A stretch of 64,000 nt of DNA. Source: Thermococcus aggregans (GTDB taxonomy: Archaea; Methanobacteriota_B; Thermococci; Thermococcales; Thermococcaceae). Under the pieces are notes generated by a model, which was given only the letters and a program-made list of their open reading frames with translations, ran no database searches and was not told where the DNA came from. Location: the NCBI RefSeq assembly GCF_024022995.1, contig NZ_CP099582.1:434001-498000 (forward strand). Direction: 5' to 3'. A program made the position numbers and the translations under genes. The number at the start of each line of letters is the position of its first letter. Position 1 is the first letter of the stretch. Shown one piece after another: positions 4,518-27,416 of the stretch.

Positions 4518-4979
4518 ATGAAAGTCCTCTGGGAAAAAGAAATACCCGCAAAGGGTATTGTTGTCTCACCAAGACCCGTATGGAAGTGCCGGAGCTGTCC
4601 GGCTTATGGAAAAAGCCCTTCCTGCCCACCCTATGCCCCTTCATGGATGGAAGCAAAGGAGCTGATAAAACACTACAAAAGAGCCCTTTTGATAAAATTT
4701 GAAATCGATTTCGAGGATTTTGAAAATGAAAAGAGGAAGGCATTGGAATACATTCTAAAGAAAGAAGATGAGCTATTTAAAAACGGAAACTTCTACACAC
4801 TAGCGTTGTTCCCGGGAAACTGCAACCTTTGTGAAGAATGCGAATTTGAAAAAAGCGGAAACTGCAGAATGCCCAACAAGGTCAGACCCTCAATAGATGC
4901 TGTTGGCATAGAGCTCTCAAAGATAGTTGAGCTCAACTTCTCCGAAAGTGTTTTGTACGGCCTGATACTTATAGATTAA
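4518..4979 (+). CDS. DUF2284 family, predicted metal-binding protein
   Basis: The 153-residue protein has a Cys-rich N-terminal part (C24, C27 and C36, in KCRSCPAYGKSPSCPPYAPS) and a second Cys group near the C-terminus (GNCNLCEECEFEKSGNCRMP). This is the pattern of DUF2284, thought to bind metal or an iron-sulfur cluster. The N-terminal Met lies at 4518 after an AT-rich promoter-like stretch. The stop is followed 10 bases later by the CARF-like gene, so the three genes at 4518-6452 may form one transcript. Biochemical role unknown. Confidence 0.7.
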   Translation: MKVLWEKEIPAKGIVVSPRPVWKCRSCPAYGKSPSCPPYAPSWMEAKELIKHYKRALLIKFEIDFEDFENEKRKALEYILKKEDELFKNGNFYTLALFPGNCNLCEECEFEKSGNCRMPNKVRPSIDAVGIELSKIVELNFSESVLYGLILID

Positions 4980-4989
4980 AGTGAAGCCT

Positions 4990-5469
4990 ATGAAAGCCTA
5001 CGTTACGATGCTCGGAAGGTCGACATGGGCCATGATAAATGCCTATTATGCAGTTGTTATGAAGAACTACCGGCCTGACAAAATTTTCATCTTTCTTGAG
5101 GACATCTATACTAAAAAGCTCCCAAAAGCAGTCGAAGCACTAAAAATAATCTCCAACGAATACGGCTTTTCTCCTGAGATAGAGTGGATAATAATTGAGG
5201 AAGACAACTTTCTCGAAGCTGATGAGAAGATAGGAGAACTCCTCAAAAAGCTGAAGAAAGAAGGCTACGAGGTATCGGTGGACATAACCTCTGGAAGAAA
5301 AGCCTTGGTAGCGGGAGCCGCCATCCATGCACTTCCATTGGAAGTCGAGCACCTATTCTACCTTTCACTTAGGGACCTCGAATATGCAAACCGGCCGTAC
5401 ATGATGATTCCCCTGCACATCCAGAGGCTAAAGGACTTTATGGAGGGCAGAAGATGGAAAAAATTATAG
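4990..5469 (+). CDS. CARF-like Rossmann-fold protein
   Basis: The 159-residue product has alternating strands and helices. Strand 1 is KAYVTMLGRST (2-12), a second is DKIFIFLED (30-38), a third is EIEWIIIEED (63-72), and the key loop is DITSGRKALVAGAA at 98-111. A Ser/Thr-Gly-Arg-Lys loop after a strand, followed by a helix, is the ligand-binding signature of CARF domains, which sense cyclic oligoadenylates in type III CRISPR responses. No nuclease domain is fused. Instead the next gene, overlapping by 16 bases, encodes a PIN-fold protein. No cas gene or CRISPR array is visible in this window. The fold call is from motif reading only. Confidence 0.6.
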   Translation: MKAYVTMLGRSTWAMINAYYAVVMKNYRPDKIFIFLEDIYTKKLPKAVEALKIISNEYGFSPEIEWIIIEEDNFLEADEKIGELLKKLKKEGYEVSVDITSGRKALVAGAAIHALPLEVEHLFYLSLRDLEYANRPYMMIPLHIQRLKDFMEGRRWKKL

Positions 5470-6452
5470 AAAAGCCGGAGCTCCAGATACTGATCAACTT
5501 AATCCAGATGAGAGACAAAATCCGCGTTAGTGCTCCCCTTTACAACATGCCACTTCTCGAAGCGTATCCTTACAAAGATGGATACAGAGTAAGGGCACTA
5601 GCCAAGGAAGAGGACTTTCACAAAGTGCTCCATGGGAAAGAGAGATACCTCTACGATCTTCCCACATACAGAGACTATTACGAGTGTTTCCTTTCCAGTG
5701 GAATAATAAACTACGCCAACATAGACGAGTTCCAAAAGAAGCTTGAAGCATATAAAAGCCTCACAAGAAGGATAATCTTTGCCCCAGATACCAACCTTTT
5801 ATACCACGCGTTTCTGTCTAAGCTCAGGGGAGTGACGGGAATCCAGATAGCGATAGTTGATTTGGTTAAGAAGGAAATCGAGAATTCAATGAACTTCAAA
5901 TACAAGCATACGCACTTAAGAGAGCTGAGAAATATCCTCCACAATTCACACCTACTCCAAGAATTCAGCAACAGGAGAATGAAAAAATCAAGGAAAGCTG
6001 CCTACATAGCCCTAAGAGAATACGAAAAGCTAAAAGACAAAATAATAGAGGTGGAAAGCATCAAAGAAAAAGCAAACACCAACGACGAGCTGATAATAAA
6101 AACTCTGAAGGAATTCGACAAAAACACGCCAGCACTTGTTGTTCTCTTAACGGCAGACATAGCGATGACTGACATAGCGGAAATCGAGGGCGTTGAGTAC
6201 TTTCTCTTTGAGTATCCCCACAAAGAGCTGAGCGAACATTATGCTAGTGGCTATCAGTTGAGAACCCTGATATTCAACCTAGCGGCTGTTTTTGGTGTCA
6301 TTGAGATGAACAACGTGCTTATATTTGGCGAATTTAGAGGAAAAACTGAACTAAATGAACTGAAGTTAGTCTTCAAGAAGGACCTACATCAAGAGTTTTG
6401 TTTCCACTGGAAGTTATGCAAAAAGCTAATGGAACTGGAAATTGAGAAGTAG
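5454..6452 (+). CDS. PIN-domain nuclease-like protein, partner of the CARF-like gene
   Basis: 332 residues. The N-terminal 105 residues are of unknown fold. From about 107 a PIN-like core follows: strand and first acid RIIFAPDTNLLYHAF (D112), a second acid after a helix (DLVKKEIENS, E141), a third in TNDELIIKTLKEF (D211), and LLTADIAMTDIAE with D235 and D240 after a hydrophobic strand. These match the four-acid Mg2+ site of PIN RNases. The 16-base overlap with the CARF-like gene implies co-translation, so a cyclic-nucleotide-controlled ribonuclease is a reasonable hypothesis. A mini-ORB lies inside its 3' end (6395-6412). Confidence 0.6.
   Translation: MEKIIEKPELQILINLIQMRDKIRVSAPLYNMPLLEAYPYKDGYRVRALAKEEDFHKVLHGKERYLYDLPTYRDYYECFLSSGIINYANIDEFQKKLEAYKSLTRRIIFAPDTNLLYHAFLSKLRGVTGIQIAIVDLVKKEIENSMNFKYKHTHLRELRNILHNSHLLQEFSNRRMKKSRKAAYIALREYEKLKDKIIEVESIKEKANTNDELIIKTLKEFDKNTPALVVLLTADIAMTDIAEIEGVEYFLFEYPHKELSEHYASGYQLRTLIFNLAAVFGVIEMNNVLIFGEFRGKTELNELKLVFKKDLHQEFCFHWKLCKKLMELEIEK
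6395..6412 (+). repeat. Mini-ORB-like element inside the PIN gene
   Basis: GTTTTGTTTCCACTGGAA differs at one position from the mini-ORBs at 7651 and 7719. Similarity to the first ORB (7309 onward) continues downstream for another dozen bases (GCTRTGCARAA-like). It is coding sequence as well, so conservation could be partly fortuitous. Confidence 0.5.
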
Positions 6453-7060: not shown

Positions 7061-7299
7061 ATGAAGTTGAACTTTGAAGTATTTAAGTTCAATCTTCCAC
7101 CGGAAGCGATAGTCGAAATAGCCGCAAACACCTCATGAAATCTTTACAATAGACAACCCCTGTAAGGTGTAATGGCCATTTCCTATGGACGAAAAATGAA
7201 CAAAGATATGCATTGAAAAGAGTACAACAGTGCTCCCAAACATGCATCCGATTTAACAAAAGTATTTGCCAACCAACCATTTGTTAAACAGAGACCTAG

Positions 7300-7327
7300 C
7301 CCCCCAGAGTTTTATTTCCACTGGAGG
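7300..7327 (+). repeat. ORB1, long origin recognition box
   Basis: CCCCCC at 7300-7305, AGAG, then TTTTATTTCCACTGGAGG. It is the mirror of ORB2 over 25 of 26 positions and faces it across the AT-rich stretch. The C/G run is the feature that separates full ORBs from mini-ORBs. Confidence 0.85.
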
Positions 7328-7362
7328 CTGTGCAGAACACCCGACACTTTCTATTAAATTGG

Positions 7363-7560
7363 TGAAAACACTCCCATTGTTTTTACACTTTGAGATATAT
7401 ATATTTATCTATGAACATTGTTCAGAAAATAACATGACCAATGATAAGAAATAACAACTAACTGGCATTTATCATTTAAGTATTGTGAACAACTTAACAT
7501 CGACAAACTCAAATGACCCTTTTAAATGCTTTTTACATTTCTATTCTCCACAAAATCCGT
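7363..7560. other. AT-rich stretch between ORBs, probable duplex-unwinding element
   Basis: It contains GAGATATATATATTTATC near 7392 and long A/T runs with little coding potential. The position between inverted ORBs fits the site of initial strand opening. Exact boundaries are a guess. Confidence 0.55.
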
Positions 7561-7577
7561 CCGATTTTCCAAACTGG

Positions 7578-7605
7578 GTTCCAGTGGAAATGAAACTCTG
7601 GGGGG
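7578..7605 (-). repeat. ORB2, long origin recognition box (inverted)
   Basis: TTCCAGTGGAAATGAAAC followed by CTCTGGGGGG ending at 7605. It is the reverse complement of ORB1 with one difference in the T-rich arm. Confidence 0.85.
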
Positions 7606-7650
7606 CCTGTCAGACGAGTTTATGAACGCTTAGATAACCATAGAAAAGGG

Positions 7651-7668
7651 GTTTTATTTCCACTGGAA
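7651..7668 (+). repeat. Mini-ORB
   Basis: GTTTTATTTCCACTGGAA, identical to the copy at 7719-7736, in ORB1 orientation and without the C run. Confidence 0.8.
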
Positions 7669-7718
7669 CTTTTGGATGCTAATGTATTAAAATGTGCATA
7701 AATATGCAAAATTGTGGT

Positions 7719-7736
7719 GTTTTATTTCCACTGGAA
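7719..7736 (+). repeat. Mini-ORB
   Basis: GTTTTATTTCCACTGGAA. It starts 68 bases after the previous mini-ORB. Both are followed by CT. Confidence 0.8.
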
Positions 7737-7800
7737 CTCATGCTGCCTTGAAATGTTGTTCAGAAGATGCACAACTACTCGTTGGGGGTTTACAAATAGG

Positions 7801-7818
7801 GCTTTATTTCCACTGGAA
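7801..7818 (+). repeat. Mini-ORB
   Basis: GCTTTATTTCCACTGGAA, one change from the other two. It lies 82 bases after the preceding one and about 95 bases before the radA promoter. Confidence 0.8.
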
Positions 7819-7924: not shown

Positions 7925-7971
7925 CACTTTGGATGCACTACTATTTAGAATCATGCTTATGGGTGATAACT

Positions 7972-10500
7972 ATGGCGAGAAAAAAGAAAGTCGAAGATGA
8001 AATTAAAGAGCTCGAAGAGTTTGAAGAGCTCGACGATCTTGAAGAACTCTCAATTGAAGAAGATTCAATCGAAGAGAGTAGTGGATCAACCAAAAAGAAG
8101 GAAATAAAAACGTTGGAGGATCTCCCTGGAGTTGGGCCCGCTACTGCTGAAAAGCTTAGAGAAGCAGGTTACGACACCTTGGAGGCGATAGCAGTAGCTT
8201 CTCCGTTAGAGCTGAAAGAACTTGCTGGAATAAGTGAAGGTGCTGCTCTAAAAATTATCCAAGCCGCGAGAGAAGCAGCTAATATTGGAACCTTCATGCG
8301 TGCTGATGAATATTTACAAAAGAGAGCCGTTGTAGGCAAAATTACCACTGGAAGCAAGGCCTTGGATAAGCTTCTCGGCGGTGGAATCGAGACTCAAGCT
8401 ATCTCCGAGGTCTTCGGTGAATTTGGTAGTGGAAAGTGTTTTGCAAAAGACACGAGAGTATACTATGAGAACGATACTTTGGTTCACTTTGAGACCATCG
8501 AGGAAATGTACGAGAAGTATAAAGCGTTGAATGGGGAAATACCATTTGACACAGGCTTTGCAGTTCCACTGGAAACGGTCAGCGTCTACACATTCGACTC
8601 CGTAACTGGAGAAGTAAAGCGCACCAAGGCTTCCTACCTTTATCGCGAGAAGGTTAGGAAGATACTTCAGATCAACCTCTCCAAGGGAAGAACGCTCAAA
8701 ATAACCGCAGTTCACCCAGTGCTTGTTTTTAGAGATGGTTTAAAGTGGGTTCGTGCAGGGGAGCTTAGAGAAGGTGATATCCTCGTTGGCATCCGTAAGG
8801 TTCCGGCTAACACAGCTTCAGTGGCCAACGAGAAAGCGTATTTCCTTGGTCTCTTCGTTGCAGAAGGAACTTCCAATCCGCTCTCTATAACAACGGCATC
8901 AGAGAAACTCAAGGAATTTATCGTTAGCTTTATCAAAAAGCACGACGGATACGAGCCGAAAGTCGAAGTTAGACGCGGCCTCTACAGGATACTTTTCCGC
9001 AAGAGAACGGCTGAATGGCTTGGAGAGCTATCTAATTCGAACGCCCAAAACAAAAAGATTCCAGAGGAAATACTCAACGGAAACGAAGAAGTTATAATAA
9101 GCTTTCTCGCGGGCTACCTCGACGGTGACGGGCACGTCTCGAAGTCCAACGTGGAGTTCGTTACAAAGAGCAGAAGCTTGGCTGAAGGGCTTGTGTTCCT
9201 CCTGAAGCGCATTGGCATTTCACCAACTGTGTCCGAGAAGGTAGTTGGTGAGGAAACCTACTATAGAATTTTCATAACGGGGGAGGATAGAGCAGCTTTT
9301 GAGAGGGTTCTCCCTGCTTCCCTCCTTAAGAACTCGAAAATACCTTCCGGAGGCGTTGGAAGGTATCCACCGGCAGTTGCTAAGTATCTCTCAAAGCTCT
9401 ACACGAGGTTTAGGCTCCCAAAGAAGGACGGTGAAACTGCTTATCACATATTGACCCGTAACAAGGATGTCTGGTTCACTGAGGAAACCCTTGAACGGAT
9501 TGCCGAATACTTCAAGGACGCGCTTGAGAGACTTGAGCTCGCTAGAAAAGCTATTGAAACTGGAGAAACTCCAAAACTGCCATTTTCTTGGACTGTCCTC
9601 AGAAAGTACGGGTTCAATGATAGGCAGATTTCCAACTACCGCACGAGGGGACTTCCAAAGCGTGAGCCGAGGAGAAGTGAAGTTATCTTTGCTCTTATGA
9701 AGGAGATTGAAGAGCTTGAGAGGACGGCTAAAGATGCCCTTAAATTCATTGAGCTCATTAAAAAGCTTGAGTTTTACGAAGTGAAGTCCGTCGAGCTGGT
9801 TGACTATAACGACTGGGTTTACGATCTCGTGGTTCCCGAGACCCACAACTTCATTGCTCCCAACGGTCTTGTCCTGCACAATACTCAACTCGCTCATACA
9901 CTTGCCGTTATGGTCCAAAAGTCGCCCGAAGAAGGAGGGCTCAGAGGTTCAGTAATATGGATTGACACAGAAAACACTTTCAGGCCTGAAAGAATAAAGC
10001 AAATAGCCGAGAACAGGGGCATGGATCCAGATGAAGTACTAAAGAACATTTACGTTGCCAGGGCCTTCAACAGCAATCACCAAATGCTCCTTGTAGAAAA
10101 AGCCGAGGAAATAATTAAACAAAAGGCTGCGAGCGATAGACCAGTTAAACTTCTTGTAGTAGATTCCCTTACAGGACACTTTAGGTCAGAATATGTGGGA
10201 AGAGGAACCTTAGCGGAGAGACAGCAAAAGCTTGCCAAGCATCTGGCAGATCTACATCGTTTGGCAAACCTTTACGATATAGCAGTGTTCGTTACTAACC
10301 AAGTTCAAGCAAGGCCTGACGCTTTCTTCGGTGATCCAACAAGACCAATAGGTGGTCACATCCTGGCTCACTCAGCCACTGTTAGAGTCTACCTAAGAAA
10401 AGGAAAAGCTGGAAAGAGAGTTGCAAGGCTTATAGACTCTCCCCACCTGCCTGAAGGAGAAGCAGCCTTTAGAATCACAGAGAAGGGAGTCGAGGATTAG
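7972..10500 (+). CDS. radA: RadA recombinase with in-frame intein
   Basis: Archaeal RecA/Rad51 homologue that forms filaments on single-stranded DNA and catalyses ATP-dependent strand exchange. The start ATG at 7972 follows GGTGAT. The acidic N-terminus leads into a helix-hairpin-helix domain ([17 protein letters not shown], about residues 47-63). The Walker A loop GEFGSGK is split at residue 155 by a 482-residue intein (156-637); the C-extein resumes with TQLAHTL, restoring GKT. Walker B ([14 protein letters not shown]) and the ssDNA loops ([16 protein letters not shown]) follow. The spliced protein would be about 360 residues, the normal RadA size. It sits beside oriC, and nucS follows after one inserted gene. 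Confidence 0.97.
8437..9882 (+). other. RadA intein with LAGLIDADG homing endonuclease
   Basis: The 482-residue insertion begins with Cys ([10 protein letters not shown]) right after the Walker A Lys and ends [13 protein letters not shown] before a +1 Thr. These are canonical class 1 splice-junction residues. Block B is near [10 protein letters not shown]. Two DOD endonuclease motifs are present, [11 protein letters not shown] and [13 protein letters not shown]. Base composition is visibly GC-richer than the flanking exteins (for example about 55% in one 60-base line against 45% in the C-extein), which fits horizontal spread. Endonuclease acids are present, so it may still be active. Confidence 0.95.
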
Positions 10501-26339: not shown

Positions 26340-27416
26340 ATGGAAGGAGTACTCCTACAAATCAGAAAGCTGCTGGCTCATAAGCGAATAGAAGAAGCCT
26401 ATGCTCTTGCAGAGCAGATACCTGACTCCTACTGGAGAGGATATGCACTCAAATGGGTTGCTGAGAGCGTTGTTGTTAAGAATCCTAAAAGAGCCATAAA
26501 AATTGCAAAAAAGATAGAGATAGAGACGTTAAAAAGTGAAACTTTGTTGCTTCTTTCATATGAACTTGCGAAGTTAAGGAAGTTTAAAGAGGCAGTAGAG
26601 GCCGCGAAACTAATAAACAACAATTACCTTAGAAAAAAAGCGTTCAGGGGAATAAGTAACGCACTTGCGAGGGCAATAATAGAAAGTAGTGCAAAAGAAG
26701 TCAGATTAAGCGAGTTTAACCTTGGAGAAGAGGATATCCAGTATTTAATGCCTCTTCCAGGCAACATTAAGTATAAAGATGGGAAGTTTCTAACTGATGC
26801 GGAGATCCACAGGATAACGGGGAAAGCAAAAATCCAGGTTCTCACTTCTGAAAACCCTACAAAACGCAGGAGAGTTGTGGTTGGGGAAAAGGAAGATAAA
26901 GAAGATCAAGATTTAAAAGGCGTTTCCACTTGCATTGAGAGGCTAATTCTCACCAACCAACTTCAAGAAGCAGAAAAACTTGCTAAAGGAGTTGACGATC
27001 CCTGTGCTTCCTACCTTTTAGAGGAAATTGGTATAACATACATTAACCAAGGGAATATCGAGAAAGCAGAAGAAATCTTGGAGAAGTTGGGACGTGCAGA
27101 CTATTTGGCAAGTGAGCTTGTAAAATTCTATTTAAAGAGGAACGAAGTTGAAAAAGCAAAGAAATATGCTCTTAGAATCTTTAATCCGGCACTTAAATTA
27201 AGCGCTGCCTATTCAATTCTGCTAATTGGTGGAATTGATGAAAAGTTCCTAAGTGAGCTGTTTAAGGATACAAGTCCTTACAAGCTCGGAAGACTTCTGA
27301 AATTTTTAGCCTTTGAGCTCCTTGAAGAGGCAAAGGAAAGAAATTCAAGCGACTTGCTGAGACTTTCCAAAAATATCTTTCTACTCGGAAAGAGGGAGCA
27401 TCAGAAGATTCATTAG
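26340..27416 (+). CDS. Alpha-solenoid (TPR-like) protein
   Basis: 358 residues. The N-terminal helical repeats (EEAYALAEQIPDSYWRGYAL, then RKFKEAVEAAKLINNNYLRK) and the C-terminal ones (LQEAEKLAKGVDDPCASYLL, then IEKAEEILEKLGRADYLASE) flank a non-repeat, charged, likely disordered middle (about 118-195). The repeat wording closely resembles the 156-residue protein at 3388-3858, so they are probably paralogues. GGAGAGTTTC precedes the ATG. It lies 45 bases after the acetyl-CoA synthetase gene and may be co-transcribed. Function unknown. Confidence 0.65.
   Translation: MEGVLLQIRKLLAHKRIEEAYALAEQIPDSYWRGYALKWVAESVVVKNPKRAIKIAKKIEIETLKSETLLLLSYELAKLRKFKEAVEAAKLINNNYLRKKAFRGISNALARAIIESSAKEVRLSEFNLGEEDIQYLMPLPGNIKYKDGKFLTDAEIHRITGKAKIQVLTSENPTKRRRVVVGEKEDKEDQDLKGVSTCIERLILTNQLQEAEKLAKGVDDPCASYLLEEIGITYINQGNIEKAEEILEKLGRADYLASELVKFYLKRNEVEKAKKYALRIFNPALKLSAAYSILLIGGIDEKFLSELFKDTSPYKLGRLLKFLAFELLEEAKERNSSDLLRLSKNIFLLGKREHQKIH

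Follow-up and report, generated by a model that had tools for sequence, protein, structure and literature searches.

In most Thermococcaceae, Thermococcus aggregans included, a small CARF protein and a predicted PIN nuclease are encoded by two overlapping genes, and the gene content of 94 genomes of the family shows that this split pair is INDEPENDENCE from type III CRISPR, while its fused paralogues behave oppositely. CARF proteins are seen for the most part as receptors for the Cas10 messenger. In this family, a CARF-nuclease pair under strong purifying selection is kept mostly without Cas10, while its fused cousin tracks Cas10 strictly, and this raises the testable question of what the CARF protein senses where there is no cyclic oligoadenylate synthase. 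The CARF_m1 clade is already catalogued; what is putatively new is the CRISPR-independent, core-genome, two-gene form with a CARF loop of its own.

The gene pair and its two proteins

Both genes lie on the plus strand of the window, by which we mean the whole stretch of 64,000 nucleotides that was analysed, the CARF gene at 4981/4990-5469 and the PIN gene at 5454-6452. The features of the locus are as follows, with residues of CARF loop 1 numbered from GTG 4981.

4518..4979, plus strand: DUF2284 protein, 153 aa, predicted to bind metal; opens the conserved unit (Pfam PF10050, E 4.9e-33)
4990..5469, plus strand: CARF protein, putative sensor subunit, 159 aa (ATG 4990) or 162 aa (GTG 4981) (PADLOC CARF_m1--CARF, E 2.5e-77; AlphaFold model)
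5014..5022, plus strand: CARF loop 1, G12-R13-S14, the GRSxW signature of the split clade (residue table)
5281..5301, plus strand: CARF motif DITSGRK, residues 101-107 (alignment of 24 sequences)
5454..6452, plus strand: predicted PIN nuclease subunit, 332 aa (Pfam PIN_4, E 3.9e-7; model pLDDT 88.7)
5454..5768, plus strand: N-terminal domain of the PIN protein, residues 1-105, corresponding to the middle domain of fused CARF-PIN proteins (hhalign to fused profiles)
5769..6236, plus strand: PIN catalytic core, residues ~106-261 (28-sequence alignment; PIN-only structure matches)
5787-5789, 5874-5876, 6084-6086 and 6156-6158, plus strand: putative catalytic acids D112, E141, D211 and D235 (alignment)
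6237..6449, plus strand: C-terminal extension, residues 262-332, with the GEFxGK stretch (alignment; SiRe_0806 match)

The two reading frames overlap by 16 nt, and in most relatives the overlap is 4-32 nt, with a full spread of -2 to 32 nt and relative frames of 1 and 2. A programmed frameshift at the A-run before the CARF stop, which would give a fused product, was ruled out because frame and overlap vary and the slippery site is not conserved. The pair is not a chance arrangement, since it shares 85-94% identity with close relatives, shows a dN/dS of ~0.05 for the CARF and the PIN gene alike in these comparisons and is present in 79 of the 94 Thermococcaceae genomes. The gene order DUF2284-CARF-PIN is constant in 21/21 loci while the flanks vary, and tblastn placed the DUF2284 gene 5' of the pair in 20/20 relatives' regions (64-82% identity).

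The first protein is a member of the CARF superfamily, clade CARF_m1, and is predicted to bind a nucleotide. It is a full-length match to the PADLOC model for stand-alone CARF proteins (CARF_m1--CARF, PDLC01971), with weak matches to NCBIfam and Pfam. AlphaFold models it with confidence over residues 1-128 and poorly beyond them. In a VIA fold comparison the top rows were CARF structures (Z 11-15), and all, or nearly all, of the 50 listed rows are known CARF proteins, including Card1, Csm6, Can2, Cam1, Csa3 and ring nucleases. Matches of the CARF profile to TAL effectors in the PDB were rejected as an artefact of summed sub-threshold repeats. Both the loop after strand 1, here in its GRS variant, and the D-x-T-x-G-R-K type motif are present, and G12, T103, G105, R106 and K107 are invariant in 24 aligned sequences reaching Asgard relatives. 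The ring nuclease Crn1 (Sso2081) is likewise a small CARF protein with a GRK motif (profile match E 1.6e-5), but it carries LGTS where the window protein carries LGRS, and it works alone on cA4.

The second gene encodes a PIN superfamily member, as judged from its fold and four conserved acids, and RNase activity is predicted. The Pfam PIN_4 match scored 30.9 bits against a cut-off of 21.9, and the model is of good quality (pTM 0.88). PIN-only structures align to residues ~98-261 (Z 8-13), and D112, E141, D211 and D235 are invariant in 28 aligned sequences, including those from Asgard archaea and Bathyarchaeota. The C-terminal extension lies outside these PIN-only matches and inside the match to SiRe_0806 described below; G292, E293, F294, G296 and K297 are invariant in the Thermococcaceae PIN proteins, and E293, F294 and K297 across all 28 rows.

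The PIN model has its closest structural counterpart in SiRe_0806 from Sulfolobus islandicus (PDB 9jxw; 9jxx with cA4). Fold comparison alone recovered this protein, which the PIN profile missed in a search of the PDB by sequence. PIN residues 1-328 superpose on SiRe_0806 153-418 (Z 16.2, 242 residues aligned, rmsd 3.7), and the window CARF superposes on residues 1-134 (Z 12.6) with 28-29% identity, the highest among the VIA matches listed. SiRe_0806 runs from CARF through a middle domain to PIN, collinear with the two window proteins, but it is a single polypeptide and was crystallised with cA4. By this placement the two window genes correspond to one SiRe_0806 in halves. Fused CARF-PIN proteins of relatives (484-548 aa) have the same domain layout as SiRe_0806, and hhalign of split against fused profiles aligned the CARF part with E 7.2e-26 and PIN residues 2-302 with residues 178-464 at E 3.1e-12, so that the N-terminal 105 residues of the PIN protein are equivalent to the middle domain of the fused form. 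The fused proteins at Thermococcaceae type III loci (PADLOC CARF_m1--CARF_PIN, PDLC01973) share domains and order with the split pair and are homologous over nearly the whole length. The window PIN protein has no PADLOC model of its own and matches the C-terminal part of PDLC01973 only. Two PIN-associated CARF families had been recorded in a survey of 2014 (PMC4012209).

An earlier note on this DNA had read the locus as a split CARF-PIN module. Both genes lie at the coordinates it claimed, and the ATG at 4990 that it chose as the CARF start is the one whose equivalent opens the relatives' genes, GTG 4981 being a longer alternative. The CARF fold, the PIN fold with four ordered acids and the split itself are all borne out, the last by the existence of fused homologues and by the collinearity of both halves with SiRe_0806. 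The 105-residue N-terminus of the PIN protein, which it had called uncharacterised, now has a counterpart in the fused proteins and lies inside the SiRe_0806 match.

The layout also invites comparison with toxin-antitoxin modules, in which the small upstream protein would restrain a PIN toxin by direct binding with no small-molecule ligand. As in VapBC, a small upstream gene overlaps the PIN gene, and VapC toxins match the PIN core (Z ~8-9.5). However, the upstream gene encodes a CARF protein and not an AbrB, RHH or HTH antitoxin, the conserved CARF pocket motif would serve no need, a labile antitoxin is at odds with the fused homologues, and the pair is stable across Thermococcaceae, unlike patchy toxin-antitoxin pairs. 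We therefore consider this explanation very unlikely and prefer a ligand-gated nuclease.

Distribution, type III CRISPR and the split clade

All 79 genomes with the split pair fall among the 85 outside one genus, g2 (79/85). The pair is missing from 9/9 genomes of g2 (G013, G018, G022, G026, G029, G032, G035, G061 and G062), although nearly all close relatives have it, and it is absent from the complete 1.5 Mb genome G082. Several g2 genomes have a fused type III CARF-PIN instead of the split pair. In G002 (L025 2107-3036), the PIN gene is broken at about residue 202 by an insertion of ~0.9 kb that carries transposase-like frames and is accompanied by a short target duplication, a natural knock-out. 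These absences and the interruption show that the split pair is dispensable. They bear directly on the possibility that the PIN protein is a housekeeping RNA-processing nuclease with the CARF protein as a mere scaffold, a reading that would suit a pair near-universal outside g2 and under strong purifying selection, and for which further matches of the PIN model, among them Rrp44, Utp24, Nob1 and SMG6, also speak. An entire genus of closely related hyperthermophiles lacks the pair and an insertion breaks it in G002, which argues that it is not essential for RNA processing; the invariant pocket motif also counts against a scaffold, leaving this reading with very little probability in our judgement.

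We then compared the pair with type III CRISPR markers. Cas10 palm2 was found in 36/94 genomes; among those with the split pair, 28/79 carry Cas10 and 51/79 do not, and 49/79 lack Cas10 and type III RAMP markers alike, a group that takes in 18 of the 27 single-contig genomes. The window's own genome gave no Cas10 palm2 or RAMP match. Where the pair and Cas10 occur together, they are 160 kb to 1.7 Mb apart (13 cases measured), and half of the genomes with both also have a fused CARF-PIN of the other clade at type III loci. In contrast, the fused form, found in 18 genomes, is accompanied by Cas10 in 18/18; the fused gene lies within ~16 kb of Cas10 in 16/18, on a separate draft contig in one and far off in one. 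The neighbours at two fused loci include Cmr1, Cmr2 and Cmr3, and at one of them also Csm1 and Cas6. Fisher tests against Cas10, which ignore phylogeny, gave p = 1e-9 for the fused form and p = 0.25 for the split form. A type III ancillary effector is marked by a nearby cas10 and by dependence on Cas10, and the split pair showed neither.

The earlier note had placed the pair outside a CRISPR locus, and indeed it sits in no cas locus. As for the type III cyclic oligoadenylate gating that it entertained, the 49/79 pair-bearing genomes without Cas10 and RAMP markers make this unsupported, and unlikely, as a general rule. It had also named conservation of the pair in genomes with neither a type III system nor a cyclic-nucleotide synthase as evidence against its reading; the first half of this was found, in the same 49/79 genomes, and the second was not, given that a DAC domain is present in 74/74 good genomes, so that gating by a cyclic nucleotide of some kind may still hold. 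A narrower version, in which the pair acts in trans and answers Cas10 cyclic oligoadenylate at times when a type III system is present in the cell or on a passing element, draws on the crystallisation of SiRe_0806 with cA4 and on the 28/79 genomes in which Cas10 is present. The markerless genomes, single-contig ones included, the large distances to Cas10, and the fused CARF-PIN with a different loop already stationed at type III loci in half of the genomes with both all speak against it, and we judge it unlikely compared with a signal of non-CRISPR origin.

A tree of 50 CARF+PIN rows, to be read with its long branches and arbitrary root in mind, placed all Thermococcaceae split pairs in one clade (support 100/99), which joins Asgard split pairs (86/69) and Asgard fused forms (99/96). 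The type III fusions of Thermococcaceae fall apart from this clade. The loop residues follow the same division. Every Thermococcaceae split pair has G-R-[ST]-x-W, as do the near Asgard forms, and E40 accompanies it in nearly all cases; the type III fusions have a G-T-[ST] loop and N at position 40. An origin of the split pair through recent local splitting of the type III fusion was rejected, given the separate clade with Asgard forms (99/96) and its own loop signature.

Proposed mechanism and candidate ligands

The best explanation, and one in which we have somewhat more belief than doubt, is that CARF-PIN is a two-subunit, ligand-gated RNase, the halves of a SiRe_0806-type protein being made from overlapping genes. 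The CARF gene product would be the sensor and the PIN gene product the cutter; the two would assemble via the N-terminal domain of the PIN protein, in a complex that includes a CARF dimer, and the PIN subunit would stay silent until the CARF pocket is filled. The presence of fused paralogues inside type III loci makes CARF gating of such a PIN domain a known arrangement. The substrate would be RNA, and under stress or infection the result may be dormancy or the control of RNA damage.

The split pair probably answers a signal that nobody has named, and a nucleotide or RNA-end signal resident in the cell seems to us likelier than a Cas10 product. By exclusion and from one precedent, our guess is that the ligand in most hosts would be such a resident signal. 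Our first choice, again a guess, would be a linear oligonucleotide or short RNA end that carries a 2',3'-cyclic phosphate. The precedent is the CARF domain of RtcR, which has tRNA fragments bearing this group as its ligand (PMC7790460). RtcR resembles the pair as a CARF protein working outside CRISPR, but it controls transcription via an AAA+ domain and its CARF domain is divergent (PMC7790460).

Our second guess at a ligand would be c-di-AMP, supplied to the RNase by a resident diadenylate cyclase of the DacZ type. The DAC domain of c-di-AMP synthases was detected in 90/94 genomes, including all 74 good ones and that of the window (genome position 26481-26855), so that a cyclic dinucleotide is available. 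CARF pockets generally hold symmetric cyclic nucleotides at the dimer interface, which speaks for this candidate. However, g2 and G082 keep the cyclase without the pair, which means that there is no co-loss, the structural resemblance to USP domains that bind c-di-AMP is weak, and we know of no CARF protein that binds c-di-AMP. As a specific account, c-di-AMP gating is thus improbable, and an RNA-end signal remains our preferred candidate. A search with one cyclase model for a CBASS cyclase gave, in the window's genome, a best SMODS match of 21.1 bits, below the cut-off, in a 457-aa frame. Across the genomes, all but one of the SMODS matches were below the cut-off, and these frames of ~450-505 aa were set aside as probable CCA-adding enzymes from their size and fold class.

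More tentatively, at a little under an even chance, we propose that the GRSxW pair serves as the effector end of an archaeal alarm pathway that is independent of CRISPR and shared by Thermococcaceae, some Asgard archaea and perhaps Bathyarchaea (where the PIN protein alone was seen), with a messenger that would come from neither Cas10 nor CBASS nor any known CARF-linked synthase. The question also bears on origins, namely whether an older RNA-stress sensor was taken over by type III signalling or the borrowing ran the other way. Tests are practical, as the proteins are small and heat-stable, the host genus is genetically tractable and a cA4-bound relative has been solved.

Asgard neighbourhoods and the origin region

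Outside Thermococcaceae, overlapping CARF-PIN pairs were found in Lokiarchaeota and Sigynarchaeota, and one Bathyarchaeote has a full-length split-type PIN protein on a contig that stops before any CARF gene. Surveys for PIN relatives gave 15/227 genomes of the Asgard phylum and 2/256 of the Bathyarchaeal class. Cas10 is present in two of the four genomes outside Thermococcaceae that supplied sequences and absent from the other two; these are metagenome assemblies and may be incomplete. More divergent split CARF-PIN pairs occur at the Asgard loci L166-L170, with W-S, V-N, E-N and T-S at the GRS position, and these loop residues suggest further candidate ligand classes. Next to the PIN gene of a Bathyarchaeote (L143 1351-2454) there is a metallo-beta-lactamase-like gene that includes an RMMBL (RNA specificity) domain, and a gene of the same type adjoins the PIN gene of a Sigynarchaeote (L146 3535-5193), where the match is just under the cut-off. 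In L146, a gene for an Eco57I-type N6 DNA methylase (Pfam) lies upstream on the minus strand, divergent from the CARF gene, and similar frames are seen in L144 and L145.

In the window, the region 7299-7818 upstream of radA holds four direct copies, plus inverted ones, of the TTTTATTTCCACTGGAA element (TTCCACTGGAA-type repeats), in a pattern fitting the origin-recognition boxes of Thermococcales. The location next to the origin, also claimed in the earlier note, therefore holds for this genome, but it does not extend beyond the window's genus, g1: radA lies 3' of the pair in 4/21 loci, all in g1, and in the others the DUF2284-CARF-PIN unit is elsewhere. A special link between the pair and the replication origin is thereby ruled out. 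The radA frame itself (7933-10500, 855 aa) is longer than usual for RadA, and part of it (CFAKDTRV... to ...NGLVLHN) reads like an intein inside the ATPase domain.
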